From Streptosporangiaceae bacterium (GTDB taxonomy: Bacteria > Actinomycetota > Actinomycetes > Streptosporangiales > Streptosporangiaceae): a DNA stretch of 9,638 nucleotides. Where the stretch lies: positions 1 through 9,638 of the forward strand of contig JASIJN010000430.1 in the NCBI GenBank assembly GCA_030050125.1, read 5' to 3'. The notes below the pieces were generated by a model. That model did no database searches. It was given only the letters and a program-made list of their open reading frames with translations, and was not told where the DNA came from. The translations under genes were made by a program, and so were the position numbers. Shown one piece after another: positions 1 through 9,638 of the stretch; the first letter of the stretch is position 1, and every line of letters starts with the position of its first letter.

Positions 1-1
1 G

Positions 2-58
2 CGCCTGCTCGACCGGGTGACCCAGACGGAGGCCCCGACGCAGGAAAGGGCGGCCTGA
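2..58 (+). CDS. 3' end of an upstream gene, probably coxM (CO dehydrogenase flavoprotein subunit), partial
   Basis: An open frame enters from the left edge and ends at TGA 56-58, giving an 18-residue C-terminal tail (RLLDRVTQTEAPTQERAA). The stop is three bases before the coxS start, and the purine-rich coxS ribosome binding site (42-50) lies inside this frame, as expected for a tightly coupled operon. In known aerobic CO dehydrogenase operons the FAD-binding subunit CoxM usually precedes CoxS and CoxL, so coxM is the likely identity. The tail itself carries no diagnostic motif, so this is an inference from gene order. Confidence 0.5.
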   Translation, partial: RLLDRVTQTEAPTQERAA

Positions 59-61
59 TCG

Positions 62-619
<558 letters not shown>

Positions 620-638
620 TCTAGATGGGAGACGGCAG

Positions 639-3032
<2,394 letters not shown>

Positions 3033-3047
3033 CAGGGGACGTCACCG

Positions 3048-3977
3048 ATGGACGGCTGGGGAGTCCTGGAGCAGGCGGGCGAGCTGACCCGGCGCGGGCA
3101 GGCGTTCGCGCTGGCCACGGTGGTGTGGCGGCAGGGCCCGTCCTCCGGCCAGCAGGGCTCCCGGGCGATCATCACCGCCGAGGGCGAGGTACACGGCTGG
3201 ATCGGCGGCGCGTGCGCGGAGCCGGTGGTGATCCGCCAGGCGCAGCAGGTGATAGCCACGCGAGAGGCCCGGCTGCTGCTGCTCGGCACGCCGGAACAGT
3301 TCGGAGAGGCCGTGCCCGAGGGCATGACCGTCGTCCCGATCGCCTGCCACAGCGAGGGCGCGCTCGAGGTCTACATCGAGCCGGTGCTGCCCGCCCCCCA
3401 CCTGGTGATCGTGGGCCGCTCGCCCATGGCGCACACGCTGGCCGACCTGGCCCGGGCCCTCGGCTGGCGGGCCGAGCTCATCGACGGGACCGACTTCGCC
3501 GCCGCCGACGCCGACCAGCGGTCGATGGTGGTGGTCGCCACCCAGGGCCACCACGACGAGGAGGCGGTGGAGCAGGCGATCGCGGCCCGGCCCGCCTACC
3601 TCGGCCTGGTCGGGTCGCACCGCCGGGGCGCCGCGCTGCTCGGCTACCTGGCCGAGCGCGGCCTGCCCAAAGAGCAGCTGGACCGGGTCCGCGTGCCGGC
3701 CGGGCTCGACCTGGGCCGGACCACGCACGAGGAGATCGCGGTGGCCATCCTGGCCGAGCTGGTCCAGCTGCGCGCGTCCGGGGCACTGCCCCCGCCGGTG
3801 GCGGTCACGCCGCGCGCCGAGGCGAGCGACCCGGTCTGCGGCATGGCCGTGGCGGCCGACGCGTCCGGCCGGCCGCTGGAACACGACGGCGTCACCTATT
3901 ACTTCTGCTCGGACGGCTGCCGCCGGGCGTTCGAGCAGGACCCCGCCGCCTACCTGAAGAGAGAGACCCGATGCTGA
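3048..3977 (+). CDS. XdhC/CoxI-type molybdenum cofactor maturation protein with C-terminal YHS domain
   Basis: This 309-residue protein has three parts. Residues 1 to about 70 are the XdhC_CoxI domain, with the conserved cysteine in WIGGACAEPVV (C56). Residues about 117-240 are the XdhC Rossmann domain, beginning LVIVGRSPMAHTLA and including LGLVGSHRR at 185-193. Residues about 260-303 are a YHS domain, opening DPVCGM and with cysteines C264, C287 and C291. XdhC proteins bind the molybdenum cofactor and help install the terminal sulfido ligand; CoxF and CoxI fill this role in cox clusters, and I cannot say which one this matches. YHS domains often accompany metal handling, so a role near copper or sulfur insertion is conceivable but unproven. 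The nucleotide-binding loop is degenerate (GRSPMA instead of a GxGxxA pattern). The start at ATG 3048 follows AGGGGA, 15 bases after coxL. The end overlaps the coxG start by seven bases. Confidence 0.92.
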   Translation: MDGWGVLEQAGELTRRGQAFALATVVWRQGPSSGQQGSRAIITAEGEVHGWIGGACAEPVVIRQAQQVIATREARLLLLGTPEQFGEAVPEGMTVVPIACHSEGALEVYIEPVLPAPHLVIVGRSPMAHTLADLARALGWRAELIDGTDFAAADADQRSMVVVATQGHHDEEAVEQAIAARPAYLGLVGSHRRGAALLGYLAERGLPKEQLDRVRVPAGLDLGRTTHEEIAVAILAELVQLRASGALPPPVAVTPRAEASDPVCGMAVAADASGRPLEHDGVTYYFCSDGCRRAFEQDPAAYLKRETRC

Positions 3978-4561
3978 TCAAGAACGAGTTCGAGGTCGCC
4001 GAGCCGGTCGAGAAGGTGTGGCGGTTCTTCGACGACATCCCGCAGGTGGCCGCGTGCCTGCCCGGCGCCGAGCTGACCGAGAACCTCGGCGACGACCGGT
4101 ACAAGGGCCGGGTGGCGGTCCGGATGGGCCCGGTCCGGCTGCAGTTCGGTGGCACCGCCGAGATCACCGAGCGCGACGAGGCGGCCAGGCGCGTGGTCGT
4201 CCACGCGGCCGGCGCCGAGGAGAGGGGCCGCGGCCAGGCCAGCATGGTGGTCACCGCGACGCTGCGCCAGGCCGGGCGCGGCACAAGGGTGGGCGTCGAG
4301 CAGGACCTGCAGCTTTCCGGCGCCGCCGCGCAGTACGGCCGGGGCATGATCTCCGACGTCACGGCCGTGCTGATGCGCGACTTCTCCGCGAACATGCAGG
4401 ACCGGATCGAGCGGATCGAGCGCGGTGAGTCGGCAGAGCAGATCGCCGCCGCGTCCGGCGCGACGGCGGCCGGCGGCTTCGCGATCGCCATGCGGGCCGC
4501 GCTGATGGCGCTGGCCCGGGTGTTCCGCCGCTTCTTCATGCCGTACCAGCCCGCGAGCTGA
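3971..4561 (+). CDS. coxG: CoxG, SRPBCC-fold membrane-recruitment protein for CO dehydrogenase
   Basis: This 196-residue protein has the CoxG/SRPBCC fold over residues 1 to about 150. Typical features are the opening FEVAEPVEKVWRFFDDI, the CLPGAEL motif at 29-35, YKGRVAVRMGPV at 44-55, and a long last helix ending in DFSANMQDRIERI. A linker rich in Ala and Gly (about 155-168) leads to a hydrophobic and basic tail (about 169-192) that could lie on or enter the membrane. In Oligotropha CoxG is needed to anchor CO dehydrogenase at the cytoplasmic membrane, and work on the mycobacterial protein links CoxG to menaquinone delivery. The start is ATG 3971, inside the end of the XdhC gene (ATGCTGA overlap), so translation is probably coupled. 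An open frame continues far upstream of this ATG but only as a shadow of coxL and the XdhC gene. The five membrane-protein genes follow 46 bases downstream. Confidence 0.93.
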   Translation: MLIKNEFEVAEPVEKVWRFFDDIPQVAACLPGAELTENLGDDRYKGRVAVRMGPVRLQFGGTAEITERDEAARRVVVHAAGAEERGRGQASMVVTATLRQAGRGTRVGVEQDLQLSGAAAQYGRGMISDVTAVLMRDFSANMQDRIERIERGESAEQIAAASGATAAGGFAIAMRAALMALARVFRRFFMPYQPAS

Positions 4562-4607
4562 GGGTGGGAGCAGAGCCGCGGCCGATGCAGAACAGGAGGG
4601 CCAGCCA

Positions 4608-4862
4608 ATGGTCTTGTGGTGGATAGGCAACGCGATCCTGCTGGTCGTGGTGCTGCCCGTGGTGATCTACCTGCTGAACCGGGTGCTCGCCGCGCTGGAG
4701 CGGATCCGCGGCGCGGCCGACGCGGTCCTGGCCGGCGGCGTGGACCTGATCGGGGAACTCGACGGCGTGCCGGCCGCGCTGGCCACGACCGACGCCACCG
4801 TCAGGGAAGTCTCCGTCGGCGCGGTCCGCTACGCGGGCTCGGTCGCGAAGCTTCTGGGCTGA
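4608..4862 (+). CDS. Small single-helix membrane protein 1 of the cox operon
   Basis: This 84-residue protein is not recognised from any named family. Residues about 3-26 form one strongly hydrophobic helix (WWIGNAILLVVVLPVVIYLL), followed at once by LLNR (22-25) and a helical tail of mixed charge. The tail contains DLIGELDG at 46-53 and ends in KLLG. No cysteine, histidine pair or known cofactor motif is present. ATG 4608 has a near-ideal AGGAGGG at 4594-4600, seven bases upstream, which fixes the start and argues that the gene is real despite its size. It is the first of five such genes behind coxG, with 17 bases to the next. Its LLNR-to-LIG spacing (25 residues) resembles that in membrane protein 5 and, more loosely, protein 4, suggesting common ancestry. 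By topology it recalls DUF948-like proteins, but I cannot confirm membership. Confidence 0.85.
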   Translation: MVLWWIGNAILLVVVLPVVIYLLNRVLAALERIRGAADAVLAGGVDLIGELDGVPAALATTDATVREVSVGAVRYAGSVAKLLG

Positions 4863-4879
4863 GAGGAAGGGGAACGGTC

Positions 4880-5107
4880 ATGCCGGCCGCCGCCTGGTTC
4901 ACGCTGATCGTCTCCGCCGTGATCGTCGCGATCACGGCGGTGGGACTGATACGGGTCATCTTCCACCTGCGGGCGATCCACAAGACGCTCGTGGCCACCA
5001 CCGGGGGTGTGCAGGCCGTCGCGCAGCTGACCAGCACCGTGCCGGACCGGCTCACCTCGGTCAACGCGAGCCTGAAGCCGGTTCGCGACTTCTGCGAAAC
5101 GGTCTGA
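4880..5107 (+). CDS. Small single-helix membrane protein 2 of the cox operon
   Basis: This 75-residue protein is of unknown function. A hydrophobic helix spans about residues 6-28 (WFTLIVSAVIVAITAVGLI, then RVIF). It is followed by a basic juxtamembrane stretch (HLRAIHK, 29-35) and a soluble tail containing LTSTVPDRLTSVNASLKPV. The positive charges directly after the helix suggest the tail faces the cytoplasm, where CO dehydrogenase also resides. The start at ATG 4880 is supported by AGGAAGGGG at 4864-4872, seven bases upstream. The open frame extends further upstream only as a shadow of the preceding gene. It lacks the LxR/LI spacing seen in proteins 1, 4 and 5, so its relationship to them is the least certain of the set. 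Confidence 0.8.
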   Translation: MPAAAWFTLIVSAVIVAITAVGLIRVIFHLRAIHKTLVATTGGVQAVAQLTSTVPDRLTSVNASLKPVRDFCETV

Positions 5108-5116
5108 GGAGCCGCC

Positions 5117-5389
5117 ATGCAAGCACACGTTCTCGCCGCGGGCGGCAGCAGCGCCGGCTGGGTCATCGGCTGGACCATCGGCGTCGTGCTCGCCGTGGTC
5201 GTGGTGGCGCTGGTGGTCACGATCCTGTGGCTGGCCAAGTCGATCGGCGACGAGGCACCGAAGATCAACGACGCGCTGACCAAGGCCGTGCACAACACCG
5301 CTCCGCTGGCCGCGCTGCGCACGACCATCGAGCACGCCACGATCATCATCGGCGGGCTGCAGCGCGGCCGCGCCCGGCTGGGAGGTTAA
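5117..5389 (+). CDS. Small single-helix membrane protein 3 of the cox operon
   Basis: This 90-residue protein is of unknown function. A short polar N terminus (1-13) precedes a long hydrophobic helix at about 14-40, ending in ILWLAK. The tail contains KINDALTKAVHNTAPLAALR (49-68), a second mildly hydrophobic stretch (ATIIIGGL, 74-81) and an Arg-rich end. The ANTA/HNTA segment and its distance from the membrane helix resemble membrane protein 4. The ribosome binding site GAGGAG (5106-5111) overlaps the stop codon of the preceding gene, and ATG 5117 follows five bases later, so the two are probably translationally coupled. Only three bases separate its stop from the next start, and its last two codons contain the next gene's GGAGGT ribosome binding site. 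Confidence 0.82.
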   Translation: MQAHVLAAGGSSAGWVIGWTIGVVLAVVVVALVVTILWLAKSIGDEAPKINDALTKAVHNTAPLAALRTTIEHATIIIGGLQRGRARLGG

Positions 5390-5392
5390 CCG

Positions 5393-5683
5393 ATGCACAC
5401 CCTGGCCATGTCCTCGGCCGAGCACACCGACTGGCTGGTGGCCGACGTCGTCGGCATCGTCTTCGTGGTCGCCGCGGCCGCGCTGCTGACGATCCTGGTC
5501 CTGCTGGTCAAGATCATCGACCGGCGGGTGGTGACGGTGCGCGACACGCTCAAGGCGGCCGCGGCGAACACCGCGGACACCAAGCTCATCCCGCAGGTGG
5601 CCGGCGGCGTGGAGGCGGTCCTGGCCGAGGGCCTGCAGCACCACCTCTTCCTCGGCCGCGTCCTCGGAAAGGTCAAGTCATGA
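5393..5683 (+). CDS. Small single-helix membrane protein 4 of the cox operon
   Basis: This 96-residue protein is of unknown function. Residues about 15-41 are a continuous hydrophobic helix (from LVADVVGIVFVV to LLVKI), followed by IDRRVVTVRDTLK, a charged amphipathic segment, and then AANTADTKLIPQVAGG at 57-72. The IDR-to-LIP spacing of 24 residues matches the LNR-to-LIG spacing of proteins 1 and 5. The C terminus is basic, with a double histidine (HH, 83-84) that has no obvious metal partner. A perfect GGAGGT at 5381-5386, six bases before ATG 5393, fixes the start. The stop overlaps the next start as ATGA at 5680-5683. Confidence 0.84.
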   Translation: MHTLAMSSAEHTDWLVADVVGIVFVVAAAALLTILVLLVKIIDRRVVTVRDTLKAAAANTADTKLIPQVAGGVEAVLAEGLQHHLFLGRVLGKVKS

Positions 5684-6042
5684 CCGGGCTCGTCGTCTTC
5701 ACCGTCGTCGACATCGCCCTGCTGATCGCGGGCCTGGCGTTCTACCTGTTCTGGGTCGGGACCCTGCTGAACCGGATCGGCGCGAACCTCGAGGAGTGCG
5801 CGCAGATCGTGCGCACGATCGTGGGGGACGCCAAGCTGATCGGTCCCGGGGTGGACCACATCAACGAGACCGGCGCGGTGGTGGCCGGAGCGCTGCCCCT
5901 GCTCTACGGCATGGCCGAGGAGATCGTGACCGACGTCACCCCGCGTCCCGAGGCACCGGCCGTTCCCGAGCCCGCCCGGCCGGCGTCCGGCACGCGACGC
6001 TCGCGCCTGCACGACGCGGTGGGATTCGTTCCGCAACGCTGA
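5680..6042 (+). CDS. Small single-helix membrane protein 5 of the cox operon, with Pro-rich tail
   Basis: At 120 residues this is the longest of the five. The hydrophobic helix lies at about 4-29 and leads directly into LLNR (29-32). The soluble part has a KLIGPGVDHINETGAVVAG segment at 52-70, where LIG (53-55) sits 24 residues after LLNR, nearly as in membrane protein 1. Residues about 88-108 are rich in Pro and Ala, followed by a basic tail ending FVPQR; this tail is absent from the other four. The start is ATG 5680, overlapping the preceding TGA by four bases, with GGAAAGG at 5666-5672. It is the last gene of the plus-strand operon. Its function is unknown. A scaffold or docking role for CoxG or CO dehydrogenase is only inferred from operon position. 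Confidence 0.85.
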   Translation: MTGLVVFTVVDIALLIAGLAFYLFWVGTLLNRIGANLEECAQIVRTIVGDAKLIGPGVDHINETGAVVAGALPLLYGMAEEIVTDVTPRPEAPAVPEPARPASGTRRSRLHDAVGFVPQR

Positions 6043-6051
6043 GACTCGGGG

Positions 6052-6083
6052 CGAGGCCGGTTCCGCGCGGGCGGCTGGCCTCG
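6052..6083. repeat. 7-bp inverted repeat in the convergent intergenic region
   Basis: CGAGGCC at 6052-6058 is complementary to GGCCTCG at 6077-6083, with an 18-base GC-rich loop. It begins nine bases after the stop of membrane protein 5. There is no T-run on either side, so it would be at best an inefficient terminator or an RNA-stabilising hairpin. A second short dyad, CCGGCC/GGCCGG, lies at 6105-6121. In DNA of this base composition such repeats also arise by chance. Confidence 0.3.
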
Positions 6084-6164
6084 GGGAACGTCCCGGCGCA
6101 GGCACCGGCCGGGTCGGCCGGGTGAGGAGGGGCACCCGGACCGCCCGGCCGGTCTCGCGCGTTG

Positions 6165-6199
6165 GAGAGACGGGGCGTAATGAACGGCTCTCTTGATTT
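6165..6199 (+). terminator. Possible weak intrinsic terminator of the cox structural operon
   Basis: GAGAGaCG at 6165-6172 can pair with CGgCTCTC at 6185-6192 (seven pairs and one internal mismatch, loop of 12), followed by TTGATTT at 6193-6199. It lies about 120 bases after the last plus-strand gene and abuts the stop codon of the opposing GIY-YIG-like gene, where two convergent transcripts should end. The stem is weak for an actinobacterial terminator and the T-run is interrupted. Confidence 0.35.
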
Positions 6200-6633
6200 C
6201 AGGCCTGGTCGGGGCCGCGGCGGGAGACGGGGCCGGTAGTGGGGGCGCGGTATTCGCCGATCCACTCGGCCTTCCAGGCGTGGTCGTACTGCTGGGCGTT
6301 GCAGCCGGGACGGTAGATCGCGGTGAGCTCGCGGGCGATCTGCTCCCGGTGCGGGCGGCCACCGCCGGGCACCTCGTAGGTGCAGATGAACACCTTCCAC
6401 TTCGATCCGGCGCGGCGCACCCAGCACGACGCGCGGGGGTGCTGGAACGGGAAGCGCTCGGCGGACAGGTCGTCGGCGTGGCCCACGTAAATGACCGCGT
6501 ACCGGTCCGGCCTGGTCTCAGGCTCCGGCTTGCACAAGATCGCGTACACGGCCGGTACCTGCGGCGGCGTCCATCCGCCGAGCAGGCGCGGGCCCTCGAA
6601 CGGGTAGCCGGCCAGCGACCCCAGACGGATCAT
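6199..6633 (-). CDS. GIY-YIG-like domain protein in the coxDE operon
   Basis: This 144-residue protein resembles the GIY-YIG nuclease fold in motif order. AVYAI at 28-32 stands in for GIY, IYVGHADDL at 48-56 for YIG and its following loop, and R60 falls where the catalytic arginine would be. An acidic helix with E97 and E102 is followed by IYRPGCN at 106-112, like the E..LI..P..N end of the family. The gap between the two tyrosine motifs (19 residues) is longer than usual, because of a Pro/Glu/Arg insert around 35-44. GIY-YIG domains cut DNA or are adapted to other roles; activity here is not established. The start is ATG at 6633, overlapping the stop of the 92-residue gene as ATGA. The frame stays open much further upstream but would then cover that gene and coxE. 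No link to CO oxidation is known to me. Confidence 0.75.
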   Translation of the reverse strand: MIRLGSLAGYPFEGPRLLGGWTPPQVPAVYAILCKPEPETRPDRYAVIYVGHADDLSAERFPFQHPRASCWVRRAGSKWKVFICTYEVPGGGRPHREQIARELTAIYRPGCNAQQYDHAWKAEWIGEYRAPTTGPVSRRGPDQA

Positions 6634-6908
6634 GGCAGCTCGTCCTCGTCCTCGCTGATCGCCTCGGCCCGTGTCACCGGCGCCTCGGGCAGGCCGGCCG
6701 CGGACGCGGCGCTGACGAACACCTCGGTCGCCTTGGCGATCGCCTCCTCGCGGGTGACCGCGTCGACGACCAGCTGGGCCCCGTACCGGGTGGTGCCGAT
6801 GCCGGTAGCGATGCCGTTGCACGCCGCGACCGCGTCGGCCAGTTCGACGACCTCCTCGCGGGACAGTACCCGGTCGCCCTCGGCCTCCAGGCCCACGCTC
6901 CACCGCAT
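6630..6908 (-). CDS. 92-residue hypothetical protein with acidic tail, paired with the GIY-YIG-like gene
   Basis: I do not recognise the family. The protein begins MRWSVGLEAEG, and by eye suggests strand (2-9), helix (17-29), two strands (33-39, 42-50) and a helix (53-70), as in a small ferredoxin-like or ACT-like alpha/beta fold. The last ten residues are very acidic (SEDEDELP). Translation is strongly supported: AGGAGG overlaps the coxE stop codon (about 6917-6922) and is placed eight bases before ATG 6908, and the gap to coxE is 12 bases. The four-base overlap with the next gene suggests the two products are made in fixed ratio and may act together. The acidic tail could mask a basic, nucleic-acid-binding partner, which is speculation. 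Confidence 0.78.
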   Translation of the reverse strand: MRWSVGLEAEGDRVLSREEVVELADAVAACNGIATGIGTTRYGAQLVVDAVTREEAIAKATEVFVSAASAAGLPEAPVTRAEAISEDEDELP

Positions 6909-6920
6909 CGGGAGACCCTC

Positions 6921-8201
6921 CTAACTCAGGGTCGGCAGCAGCGCCGCGAACTCCTCGAGGCTGCTCAGGTCGTGGCCGGACAGGGTCAGGTCGATGTGCG
7001 GCGCGGCGACCATCATCCCGAGCGTGCTGGGCCGGAAGGACCGGTCGTCGCCCTTGTGCGGGTTCATCCACACCACCTTGTGGCTGAGCCGGGCGAGCCG
7101 TTCCATGGCCGAGGCCAGCACGTCCGGGTCGCCGCGGTCCAGGCCGTCGGAGCAGATCACCACGATTCCGCCGCGGCACAGGCCGCGCCGCCCCCAGTCC
7201 CTGACGAACGCGTCCAGCGAGGCACCGATCCTGGTGCCACCCTCCCAGTCAAACACGGTCCGCGTGGCGCGCTCCAGCGCGTCGTCCGGACGGCGGTGAT
7301 CGAGTTCGCGGGTGATGCGGGTGAGCCGGGTGCCGAAGCAGAACACCTCGACCCGCTGCGCGGCACGCCGTGCCGAGTAGGCGAACTGCAGGAGGTTCCT
7401 CGAGTAGTCGGCCATCGAGCCGGAGACGTCCAAGATGAGGATCAGCGGCCGCAGCCGCACCCGGCGGCGGCGCCAGAACAGCTCGGCGGGCTCGCCGTGC
7501 ATGCGCAGCGACTCCCGGGCCGTGCGGCGCAGGTCGGGCGAGCGTCCGGACGGCGCGCTCCGGGTCCGCCGGGTGCGCCGCTTCGGCGGGGTGAGCCGGA
7601 TCCTGGCCATGATCCGCCGCACCGCCGCGAGTTCCTCCGGGGTGCAGGCCCCGAACGACTTGTGCCGCAGCGCCTCGGCGTCGGACGCCATCAGTCCGAG
7701 CGTGGCCTGCTCCTCCGGCTGGCCCTCTTGGGCCGGGTCGGTGGCCGGCACCTCCAGCACGGCATCGGCCTCGTTGGTCACCTGGGCCCGGAGCGCGAGC
7801 ACCTCTTTGACGGGGTCGCCGCCGCCGAGGAAGAACCGCCGGAACACCTCGTCATAGACCGGAATGCTGTCACGCCGGGTGACCAGCGTGGCCCGGCCCG
7901 CCCAGTACAGATCCACCAGATCGGTCGGGTCCAGCGGGCCCATCGCGGAACAGAAGTCGACCATGTCTCCGGAGCCCACCGGCAGCCCGGCCGCGCGCAG
8001 CTCACGGGAGAACGAGACGAGCACTCCGACCAGCGGAGCACGGTCCCGCCCCGGCGCCGGATCCCGCCCCGGCAGGGGGTCCCGCCCCGGCAGGGGGTCC
8101 CGGCCCGGCAGCGGGTCCCGCCCGGGCAGTGCCTCCCGGTCCGGCACCCCGGCCTGCCCAGGCATCAGGTCCCGCTCAGGCATCAGGTCCCGCTCAGGCA
8201 C
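6921..8201 (-). CDS. coxE: CoxE, VWA-domain maturation protein, with an N-terminal hexapeptide repeat
   Basis: This 426-residue VWA_CoxE protein works with the AAA+ protein CoxD in assembling the copper- and sulfur-containing active site of CO dehydrogenase. The core begins near residue 57. An Arg-rich linker lies at about 202-250. The VWA domain (about 250-426) has an intact metal-ion-dependent adhesion site: DVSGS at 258-262 (D258, S260, S262), T323 in GGTRIG, and D352 in CSDGLD. Residues 1-54 are nine hexapeptides of the kind LPGRDP or MPERDL, encoded by an 18-bp tandem repeat, and are not part of the known family. The first possible start is GTG 8201, overlapping the coxD stop by eight bases. 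In-frame ATGs at 8183 and 8165, or GTG at 8024 just before the core, are alternatives, and none has a strong ribosome binding site. The stop is TAG at 6921-6923. Confidence 0.93.
   Translation of the reverse strand: MPERDLMPERDLMPGQAGVPDREALPGRDPLPGRDPLPGRDPLPGRDPAPGRDRAPLVGVLVSFSRELRAAGLPVGSGDMVDFCSAMGPLDPTDLVDLYWAGRATLVTRRDSIPVYDEVFRRFFLGGGDPVKEVLALRAQVTNEADAVLEVPATDPAQEGQPEEQATLGLMASDAEALRHKSFGACTPEELAAVRRIMARIRLTPPKRRTRRTRSAPSGRSPDLRRTARESLRMHGEPAELFWRRRRVRLRPLILILDVSGSMADYSRNLLQFAYSARRAAQRVEVFCFGTRLTRITRELDHRRPDDALERATRTVFDWEGGTRIGASLDAFVRDWGRRGLCRGGIVVICSDGLDRGDPDVLASAMERLARLSHKVVWMNPHKGDDRSFRPSTLGMMVAAPHIDLTLSGHDLSSLEEFAALLPTLS
8044..8200. repeat. 18-bp tandem repeat array coding the N terminus of CoxE
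   Basis: Six consecutive 18-base units run from 8044 to 8151, with plus-strand consensus TCCCGCCCCGGCAGGGGG. A diverged unit follows at 8152-8169, then two copies of TCCCGCTCAGGCATCAGG, the second cut at 8200. The two units at 8062-8097 are identical. On the minus strand each unit codes one hexapeptide of CoxE residues 1-54. Among the four units that code LPGRDP every base difference falls in a third codon position (Pro CCC/CCG, Gly GGG/GGC, Asp GAC/GAT, Pro CCG/CCC), which suggests selection on the peptide. Confidence 0.93.
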
Positions 8202-9069
8202 CGGAGGTGATTTCTTCGAGATTGTCCTGGACCAGATCGAGGTCGTCGCGCTCCTTCACCACGGCGCCGAGCGTGTCCGCGGCCACAGCGGGATCGAGGT
8301 CGGTCTGCCCGAGGAAGTCCAGCGTGCGCACCCAGTCGATGGTCTCGGCCACACCAGGCGGCTTGGCCAGGTCCATCTCCCGCAGCCGGTTGACCGCGGC
8401 GACGACCTTGCGGGTCAGCGCCTCGGACACCCCGGGCTCGCGGACCAGCACGATCTCGACCTCGCGCTCGGCCGACGGGTAGCCGATCCAGTGGTAGAGG
8501 CAGCGCCGCTTCAGCGCGTCGTGCAGTTCCCGGGTGCGGTTGGACGTGAGGATGGCCAGCGGCGGCGTCTGCGCTCTGATCGTCCCGATCTCCGGGATGG
8601 TGATCTGGAAGTCGGACAGCAACTCCAGCAGGAAAGCCTCGAACTCGTCGTCGGCCCGATCGATCTCGTCGATCAGCAGCACCGCCTGGTCGCCGGCCCG
8701 GACGGCCTCCAGCAGCGGCCGCTCCAACAGGAACTTCGGGCCGAATAGCTTGTCAACGGCCGTGTCGTCGGCCATCTGGCGCTCGGACAGGGCCCGGATC
8801 TGCAGCATCTGCCGGGCGTAGTCCCACTCGTATAGCGCCTGGTTGGTATCAATGCCCTCGTAGCACTGCAACCGGATCAGCTTGCGGCCGAACACCTGGG
8901 CGAGGACCTTGGCCACCTCGGTCTTGCCCACCCCGACTTCGCCCTCGAGCAGGATCGGCCGCTGCAGATTGAGCGAGACGAAAAGCGCGGTGGCCAGGCC
9001 GCGGTCGGCCAGGTAACCCCCCTGGCGCAAGATCTCGGTGAGCCTACCGACGGTCTCCGGACGCTCCAT
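8194..9069 (-). CDS. coxD: CoxD, MoxR-family AAA+ ATPase for CO dehydrogenase active-site assembly
   Basis: This 291-residue AAA+ ATPase is of the MoxR/CoxD type. Walker A is GEVGVGKT at 43-50 and Walker B is LLIDEID at 131-137 (D134, E135). Sensor 1 is in LTSNRTREL (N177), and the RR at 188-189 in LKRRCLYHW is in the usual arginine-finger position. The C-terminal helical lid follows from about residue 200. In Oligotropha, CoxD is a membrane-associated ATPase needed to put sulfur and then copper on the molybdenum centre; CoxE is its VWA partner. The pairing here, with an eight-base gene overlap, fits that. ATG 9069 is preceded by GAGGAGAG (plus-strand 9076-9083), and the protein begins at the usual point of the family. 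The length is normal and all ATPase motifs are intact. Confidence 0.96.
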   Translation of the reverse strand: MERPETVGRLTEILRQGGYLADRGLATALFVSLNLQRPILLEGEVGVGKTEVAKVLAQVFGRKLIRLQCYEGIDTNQALYEWDYARQMLQIRALSERQMADDTAVDKLFGPKFLLERPLLEAVRAGDQAVLLIDEIDRADDEFEAFLLELLSDFQITIPEIGTIRAQTPPLAILTSNRTRELHDALKRRCLYHWIGYPSAEREVEIVLVREPGVSEALTRKVVAAVNRLREMDLAKPPGVAETIDWVRTLDFLGQTDLDPAVAADTLGAVVKERDDLDLVQDNLEEITSGA

Positions 9070-9162
9070 GCAGCGCTCTCCTCGCCGTCGGCTCGGGGAC
9101 GATCAGCGTATCTTCGGTCAGCGGATATGCGGCCACCGGGTATGCGGCCGGGCGGACGGCGG

Positions 9163-9450
9163 CTATCGGCGCGCCTTCGCCGGGCGCAGGACCAGGTCCC
9201 GGACGCTGCCCGCCTCGGGATTCAGCTTGCCCTCCCGCCGCAACTGCTCCCGCCAGGCGGCATGCAGGTCGGCGTTGGTTCCGCTGCCCGTGCCCTGGGC
9301 CGCCTCGGCCAGCCCGTCGAACCCGACATCGGCCATCTTCTTGCACGACTTCGTCGTGCCACAGGCCTCATCAAGATCCACACTGGTCTGTCCCTGGGCG
9401 CTCCACACCTCGCGGAGCACTTCCAGGGCCTCATCCTGCTGACCACTCAT
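9163..9450 (-). CDS. 95-residue hypothetical protein upstream of coxD
   Basis: I do not recognise this protein. It starts with an acidic helix (about 5-19). A short segment with two cysteines, CGTTKSC (C30, C36), follows, then a Gly/Thr-rich loop (52-58), a helix containing AAWREQLRREGKLNP (about 64-78) and a basic end (RPAKARR). No membrane helix or signal peptide is seen. GGAAGG (plus-strand 9460-9465), nine bases before ATG 9450, supports the start. The 93-base gap to coxD is larger than others in this gene set, so it may be the first gene of the maturation operon or a separate transcript. A minus-strand frame at 9044-9346 overlaps it in another register but has lower-quality composition and no ribosome binding site. 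The two-cysteine segment might bind a metal, but nothing else supports this. Confidence 0.65.
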   Translation of the reverse strand: MSGQQDEALEVLREVWSAQGQTSVDLDEACGTTKSCKKMADVGFDGLAEAAQGTGSGTNADLHAAWREQLRREGKLNPEAGSVRDLVLRPAKARR

Positions 9451-9529
9451 CGGCAGATACCTTCCGGCCGGGTGTTGCTGTCCTGAACTCGACTCTAATT
9501 CCTGCTGGCAAGTTCGGGCGACCGCGGAT

Positions 9530-9543
9530 TAAGGGATCTCTTA
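9530..9543. promoter_or_regulatory. 14-bp near-palindrome, candidate operator upstream of the minus-strand genes
   Basis: TAAGGGATCTCTTA is an inverted repeat with one mismatched base pair. It stands out as AT-richer than its surroundings and lies 80 bases upstream of the ATG at 9450, in the only stretch of the window likely to hold the promoter of the maturation genes. A regulator site is plausible but no protein is assigned, and I see no convincing -35/-10 pair at standard spacing. Confidence 0.3.
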
Positions 9544-9607
9544 TCGTCTGACCAGGGATGTCCGTCTCGGGTGCCCCGGTGCCACCTGCCGTGGCCGACC
9601 ATCGTGG

Positions 9608-9638
9608 ACCCGGTCACCCGGCTACCGGGTTTACCCGG
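9608..9638. repeat. Cluster of ACCCGG/CCGGGT hexamers at the right edge
   Basis: ACCCGG occurs at 9608-9613, 9616-9621 and 9633-9638, with the inverse CCGGGT at 9625-9630. The last three make two mutually exclusive hairpins (9616-9630 and 9625-9638). This could be the end of a terminator or attenuator belonging to a gene beyond the window, or an operator array. The window ends here, so it cannot be resolved. Confidence 0.35.

Follow-up and report, generated by a model that had tools for sequence, protein, structure and literature searches.

Several described proteins and operons bear comparison with the locus studied here. The carbon monoxide dehydrogenase (CODH) of Mycobacterium smegmatis is described as primarily cytosolic (PMC6794299), and one group 1h [NiFe]-hydrogenase as membrane-associated, with subunits that have neither a membrane helix nor a signal peptide (PMC7174314). 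HucM serves as the membrane stalk and scaffold of Huc, the group 2a [NiFe]-hydrogenase of M. smegmatis (PMC10017518). For CODH itself, the cluster of Oligotropha carboxidovorans reads coxBCMSLDEFGHIK and its CoxG is described as recruiting the enzyme to the membrane (PMC4240915), while a 2026 survey citing Kropp et al. 2025 calls CoxG menaquinone-binding (PMC13240472). Group 1h hydrogenase operons also carry conserved hypothetical proteins named HhaABC (PMC6776052), and three conserved hypothetical proteins are reported from group 1h loci (PMC5900883). Here we examine a stretch of 9,638 nucleotides from a Streptosporangiaceae bacterium (GenBank assembly GCA_030050125.1, contig JASIJN010000430.1, positions 1 to 9,638 of the forward strand; "the window"), in which five small genes, labelled A to E, lie 3' of coxG:

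4608..4862, plus strand: gene A, 84 amino acids, single-helix membrane protein, predicted N-out/C-in, paralogue group A/C/D
4880..5107, plus strand: gene B, 75 amino acids, single-helix membrane protein, paralogue group B/E
5117..5389, plus strand: gene C, 90 amino acids, single-helix membrane protein, paralogue group A/C/D
5393..5683, plus strand: gene D, 96 amino acids, single-helix membrane protein, HHLF near the C-terminus
5680..6042, plus strand: gene E, 120 amino acids, single-helix membrane protein, cox-specific basic C-terminal tail

These five resemble the known systems in part. Like A to E, HucM is a non-redox helical protein proposed to connect membrane and menaquinone with a gas-oxidising enzyme that is otherwise soluble; unlike them, it is a single peripheral protein of 188 residues that forms a homotetramer, whereas A to E are five proteins with predicted membrane helices and two kinds of partner enzyme. 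CoxG shares their operon and a proposed role in bringing CODH to membrane and quinone, but has an SRPBCC/Bet v 1-type fold, whereas A to E are single-helix proteins that also occur in stretches without a CoxG match. The CoxB, CoxC, CoxH and CoxK genes of Oligotropha carboxidovorans likewise belong to a form I cox cluster as accessory genes; their products are membrane proteins larger than A to E. Among the papers listed by our literature search, with subscription papers and preprints mostly outside its coverage, none describes the run of five genes or reports that CODH and hydrogenase clusters have it in common, and the available portions of PMC13098282 are silent on it.

The five are real genes, and the run is kept beyond chance. 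A preliminary description of the window, made from its letters, had reported five genes of 75 to 120 codons directly behind coxG; we confirmed the genes and the gaps of 17, 9, 3 and -4 bases between them, with coxG ending 46 bases 5' of A. Its statement that each gene has a good ribosome binding site stands for A to D, whose sites are purine-rich (A AGGAGG, B GAGGAAGGGG, C GAGGAG, D GGGAGG); E has a weaker one (GGAAAGG). Scanning genome contigs for family A gave 93 confirmed stretches, the best 80 of which were taken as loci and span many families of Actinomycetota, Acidimicrobiia included; L049 comes from the cultured Pseudonocardia dioxanivorans CB1190. In this set, all five genes stand in the same order in 71 of 80 loci, the remaining nine being interrupted by a contig end; in L001, the E frame enters an assembly gap. 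CoxG lies directly 5' of the run in 75 of the 80, as in the window, so that the outcome the same description had named as speaking against it, a run lying mostly away from cox genes, is not what the loci show. One locus (L021) begins at A and has coxE and coxD 3' of the run. Median gaps over the loci, with start codons chosen by script, are 12 bases from CoxG to A and then 16, 12, 2 and -4. Against six relatives, the ratio of nonsynonymous to synonymous change (pN/pS) of A to E is 0.13 to 0.64, highest for C. In a protein database, 4996 of 5200 candidates for family A and 4259 of 4390 for family E are relatives at E<=0.01, and none of the five reaches a cut-off in Pfam or NCBIfam.

The A–E module is not specific to cox clusters: it is common to form I CODH and to a clade of [NiFe]-hydrogenases, and its gene-neighbourhood association with both enzymes is shown by the following survey. 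We searched 246 evenly drawn Actinomycetota genomes, one of them the centre G001, which also carries the module. Profiles built from cox-type members only matched 25 genomes for A and 20 for E; merged profiles matched 27 for A and 26 for D, with A and D together in 26, A without D in one and D without A in none. Around the matches lie host clusters of two kinds: one is form I CODH, the other a [NiFe]-hydrogenase cluster that encodes both the large and the small subunit along with a maturation protease, and often HypC/HypD too. From 47 listed places of A we kept the 31 that score at least 46 bits, setting aside 16 lower ones, in the same genomes, as likely cross-matches to paralogues. Structural or maturation genes of CODH or hydrogenase are found no more than about 11 kb from 28 of those kept; of the other three, two sit at contig ends (G131:C188 and G110:C70) and one is about 17 kb from a CoxL (G174:C2:589758).

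Each cox-type family has its own counterpart beside hydrogenases. In hhalign comparisons of cox-type with hydrogenase-type profiles, the A-to-E diagonal scored 99.7, 99.0, 99.1, 99.1 and 98.5%, each the best of its row, against at most 27.6% in a reversed-column control. Some off-diagonal pairs also score high (B–E, C–D, A–C and A–D), which suggests that the five families are old paralogues forming two groups (A/C/D and B/E), whose separation predates that of the two enzyme contexts. Because the hydrogenase-type profiles were recruited together with the cox-type ones over three rounds, which is circular, independence rests on the cox-only A and E profiles; these match at hydrogenase loci, and all their genomes fall among the 27 of merged A. 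Reversed decoys of the frames of L151–L170 gave no match.

The hydrogenase partner is a distinct clade, for which we use the working name type X. Its large subunit (taken from L122) finds HofG (5aa5) as closest entry in PDB, at 459 bits with the next at 187, and its identity to classic HofG-like large subunits from this genome set is only 38–43%. Type X signatures read RACGVCGG, DPCMPCTTH and SCDGC, whereas eight classic loci carry RICGICGD and DPCLPCGVHM, together with SCDGD in the seven that have a visible small-subunit signature, a pattern we take to mark group 1h. We rejected group 1h as an identity for type X, which lacks the 1h-like signatures and has only that 38–43% identity. A type X large subunit (a match of at least 51% identity) is present in 13 genomes, every one of which carries A (Fisher 1.4e-14). 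The gene order small subunit-C-D-E-A-B-large subunit occurs in L128, L140, L141 and L142, and L143 shows the same run, cut ahead of the large subunit; in L122, L123 and L127 the units A-B and C-D-E flank both subunit genes. A twin-arginine motif is absent from all 13 small-subunit frames of module-bearing hydrogenase loci, which suggests that this hydrogenase is probably cytosolic. Other observations concern the make-up of these clusters. AAA+ ATPase and/or VWA proteins like CoxD and CoxE are encoded in L117, L118, L119 and L165, and TPR-like and biotin-ligase-like proteins in L122 (11582-13617) and L119 (2948-5548). Two large-subunit-like matches beside C-D-E (G147:C48:132034 and G243:C110:3921) have one in-frame TAG each, and the one that lies in L132 shows neither large-subunit signature by pattern. 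Two or three larger paralogues of about 190–240 amino acids join A to E in L114 (2971-4865), L121 (2358-4271), L115, L117, L119 and L171, extending the module to as many as eight members; they have one membrane helix and long repetitive helical tails, several with paired C-terminal cysteines.

On the CODH side, the module is unevenly distributed. CoxL is matched in 38 genomes (37 over the curated cut-off), among which A lies at the cox locus in ten (in G196 judged by CoxG alone) and at hydrogenase loci in four. We built a quick CoxL tree, with support from the Shimodaira–Hasegawa-like approximate likelihood-ratio test (SH-aLRT) only, of 49 rows, namely 48 of 112 full-length extracted CoxL and that of the window; the label "no module" means 10–20 kb of context for L144–L150 and, for other rows, A absent from the genome or present only elsewhere in it. 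Module-adjacent CoxL fall into two supported groups, one of 18 rows with the window (support 100) and the pair G215/G107 (100), and the label changes twice on the tree, against about 16 times in shuffles. G215 and G107 have the hydrogenase-like order C-D-E-A-B, 5' of coxS and coxL. As a separate observation, a second CoxL, on the opposite strand and about 50–61% identical to that of the window, lies a few kb 5' of the module-bearing cox cluster in L013, L033, L036, L040, L049 and others.

The proteins themselves share a simple build. As the preliminary description had noted, each has a single hydrophobic helix: one hydrophobic stretch near the N-terminus, with a 19-residue Kyte–Doolittle mean of 2.5–3.1 in the window. 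No lysine or arginine precedes this stretch in the window's A to E, and one to four follow within 15 residues. Over the loci, with one incomplete E (<100 amino acids) left out of charge and tail counts, the charge balance favours a cytosolic C-terminus in 76/80 A, 71/75 B, 66/74 C, 72/73 D and 62/69 E, that is, in 347 of 371 cox-type members, and in 62 of 66 hydrogenase-type ones; of the cox-type remainder, seven prefer the opposite (four C, three E) and 17 are ties. Topology and helix length are predictions. AlphaFold2 models, which cover D and E, give a single helix at 2–86 for E (mean predicted local distance difference test score, pLDDT, 80; predicted template modelling score, pTM, 0.36) and helices at 8–61 and 67–95 for D (pLDDT 78, pTM 0.41). 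The tails of these two proteins follow the enzyme: HHLF near the C-terminus of D is found in 72/73 cox-type and 0/13 hydrogenase-type members, and the basic RR..R..VG C-terminal tail of E in 69/69 cox-type members (>100 amino acids) and 0/12 hydrogenase-type ones. The preliminary description had seen no cofactor motif and thought a structural role likelier, and this holds up: Pfam and NCBIfam reveal no cofactor-binding domain, and the run looks structural. We considered and rejected a heme-bearing membrane anchor, because each protein has one hydrophobic stretch with no invariant histidine inside it in the cox-type alignments; an invariant histidine of B (residue 29) sits two residues past the stretch, and the HHLF histidines of D sit near the C-terminus.

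Putting these features together, we consider A to E somewhat more probably than otherwise (roughly 55%) to be the five subunits of a single membrane module without redox function, on which a cytosolic gas dehydrogenase is mounted near the quinone pool. Such a module would lie at the inner face of the membrane and hold the enzyme beside the quinone pool, each subunit contributing one membrane helix that continues into a cytosolic helical part. Jointly the five would form a helical stalk or bundle that keeps the enzyme membrane-bound and gives access to menaquinone, either to the enzyme itself or to CoxG as its quinone carrier; we infer this assembly into one complex, the docking and the quinone access. 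The same module would serve two unrelated enzymes, form I CODH and the [NiFe]-hydrogenase clade, through the need common to both of passing electrons from a soluble enzyme to membrane quinone, and partner specificity may come from the enzyme-specific tails of D and E (HHLF and RR..R..VG in the cox types). A hetero-oligomeric docking stalk is the best reading of a C-in topology and long helices in proteins that have no redox domain, whose genes can stand between structural genes and whose tails differ by enzyme. More tentatively, and with slightly less than even expectation, we propose that this is an exchangeable five-part hetero-oligomeric mount, drawn from groups A/C/D and B/E, that docks both the molybdenum CODH and the nickel-iron hydrogenase to the quinone pool in Actinomycetota.

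Several findings weigh against a docking stalk for the two enzymes, or narrow it. Our sampling covers a single phylum, Actinomycetota. Four of the 80 loci (L015, L051, L062 and L070) lack any cox gene in the stretch that holds the run; these are Streptosporangiaceae assemblies in which the run stands apart from cox genes, and while genomes G004 and G005 have a second copy near CoxL in addition to the orphan run, in G006 and G007 the orphan is the sole copy found. Among the 38 CoxL genomes, 24 lack family A, so CODH in general does not need the module. Type X large-subunit matches (at least 51% identity, fragments included) number 24, of which 13 have the module in the fetched stretch and three lie outside the fetched stretches; four, however, show single or weak A–E-like matches of 17–51 bits (L166, L177, L178 and L179), and four have no module (L164, L167/L188, L186 and L187, where L186 and L187 sit on contigs that are short or cut). 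Classic group 1h-like stretches (L151–L163, L168–L170) gave no A–E match in any of 16. Since A also occurs in just four of 27 non-X hydrogenase genomes (Fisher 0.51), we rejected a generic association with group 1h. HhaABC are, like A to E, unnamed conserved genes in high-affinity hydrogenase operons, but these 16 stretches set the two apart, by locus and not by HhaABC sequence. The cox-only E profile finds nothing at E<=1e-4 in the loci of order small subunit-C-D-E-A-B-large subunit, where the correspondence rests on cox-only A, on the iterated profiles and on the scores of L128 (D 39, B 31 and C 19 bits, the last weak). Lastly, the cytosolic parts of A to E in the window are not significantly amphipathic (shuffle p 0.08–0.42); a quinone-lined tube therefore lacks direct support, and the mechanism set out above is not based on a hydrophobic tube.

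The main claim of the preliminary description was that the five proteins form a membrane platform for CoxG or CODH. In outline the reading as a membrane platform is strengthened. The part that stands is a conserved, cox-tied structural unit (75/80); the CoxG-specific part does not, as CoxG is unmatched in all 21 hydrogenase-context stretches with module genes, from 15 genomes, elsewhere in which it was not sought. With the same five families beside hydrogenases in stretches that have no CoxG match, a platform for CoxG alone does not fit, and CoxG is not the general partner. A membrane receptor specific for CoxG, from which CoxG would shuttle menaquinone to CODH, agrees with coxG being directly 5' of the run in most loci and with the description of CoxG as menaquinone-binding (PMC13240472), yet against it stand both these stretches and the presence of CoxG in module-free cox loci (L144–L149), and we regard it as improbable. 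From the hydrogenase-context stretches and the many CoxL genomes without A, it follows that the module is an optional add-on common to two unrelated gas-oxidising enzymes.

Of the other explanations, the one that retains most weight, though we think it unlikely, is an assembly or maturation set: together with CoxD and CoxE, A to E would draw the apo-enzyme to the membrane so that metal can be inserted or subunits assembled there, and would then leave the finished enzyme. CoxD, CoxE and CoxF of O. carboxidovorans have been assigned to metal-cluster maturation (PMC4240915), CoxD- or CoxE-like genes accompany the run in 51 of 80 loci and in the four hydrogenase loci named above, and HypC/HypD and a protease are found in several module-bearing clusters. 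Module-free CODH loci (L144, L145, L146 and L148) nevertheless keep both CoxD and CoxE, so maturation can do without A to E; moreover, a place between hydrogenase structural genes fits subunits better than maturation factors, and the metal centres of the two enzymes differ, which would make a common insertion factor unlikely. Somewhat less likely again is an alpha-helical conduit, lined by A to E, that would carry menaquinone from the bilayer to the enzyme in the manner of the HucM stalk of Huc hydrogenase; the long helices predicted for D and E would suit it, but the window proteins lack significant amphipathicity, no natural PDB relative is trusted, and in cox loci CoxG is already a quinone carrier. 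We give as little credence as to the CoxG receptor to the idea of co-transcribed bystanders, for instance stress or envelope proteins of the DUF948/YoxC sort travelling with gas-oxidation clusters. DUF948 (PF06103)/YoxC-like proteins are small and in general build like A to E, a single membrane helix at the N-terminus being followed by a helical tail. B and D of L128 show weak sub-threshold similarity to DUF948 (16.7 bits, E 0.009, and 17.0 bits, E 0.007), as does a larger paralogue of L121 (16.7 bits), and three among 120 listed relatives of hydrogenase-type D bear the source name YoxC. All these scores are far under the gathering score of 37.2 bits and the window's A to E have no DUF948 match at E<=1, so we rejected a DUF948/YoxC-like identity; against bystanders in general stand the two enzyme classes in several gene orders, the co-occurrence of the families and the enzyme-specific tails.

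Profiles of A, B, D and E found in PDB weak matches to coiled-coil designs, which reflect heptad-like composition and not kinship, and to chance stretches of enzymes; a tryptophan synthase match (E 6e-4) was read as composition and set aside, and no natural chain was trusted as a relative. The HucM chain is absent from the matches of these four profiles at E<=1, its presence in the PDB set being unchecked. Among viral contigs, 23 pattern matches included no relative of E, and among plasmids the run had no DNA match and D no protein match.

The remaining features of the window place the run in a form I (Mo-Cu) CODH cluster, as judged from its gene content:

62..619, plus strand: coxS, [2Fe-2S] small subunit (Pfam Fer2_2; Fer2)
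639..3032, plus strand: coxL, form I CO dehydrogenase large subunit (TIGR02416; Pfam MoCoBD_1/2)
3048..3977, plus strand: XdhC/CoxI-type accessory protein with a C-terminal YHS domain (Pfam XdhC_C, XdhC_CoxI, YHS)
3971..4561, plus strand: coxG, 196 amino acids, directly 5' of the run (Pfam COXG 7e-16)
6199..6633, minus strand: 144-amino-acid protein between E and coxE, no Pfam match
6630..6908, minus strand: 92-amino-acid conserved protein between E and coxE, no Pfam family over cut-off
6921..8201, minus strand: coxE-like VWA protein, convergent with the run (Pfam VWA_CoxE 4e-56)
8194..9069, minus strand: coxD-like MoxR-type AAA+ ATPase (Pfam AAA_5 4e-13; NCBIfam MadB_ATPase below cut-off)

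CoxL scores 1100.4 bits against the form I model TIGR02416 (cut-off 991.15), its translation contains AYRCSFR, which we take to be the form I CoxL motif, and CoxS and CoxG are encoded with it. CoxM is not visible in the window, which begins 61 bases 5' of coxS. The window's CoxG matches chain D of PDB 8uds, annotated as CoxG family, at E 7.4e-30. Closed relatives of the 92-amino-acid protein occur in 49 of the 80 loci.

The question on which A to E bear is the route that leads from cytosolic CO dehydrogenases, and from related hydrogenases, to the quinone of the membrane. Their sharing between CODH and hydrogenase clusters is new and suggests a common membrane mount for gas-feeding enzymes. 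The family is abundant in public sequence data, as the relatives of A attest, and A to E offer an easily read genomic marker, by which CODH loci fall into two kinds and one hydrogenase clade can be recognised. If they mount some of these enzymes, the question of quinone access would become directly testable through five small genes; and if the exchangeable mount proposed here is real, CODHs would be of two sorts, some mounted on a stalk and others free in the cytosol and dependent on CoxG alone.

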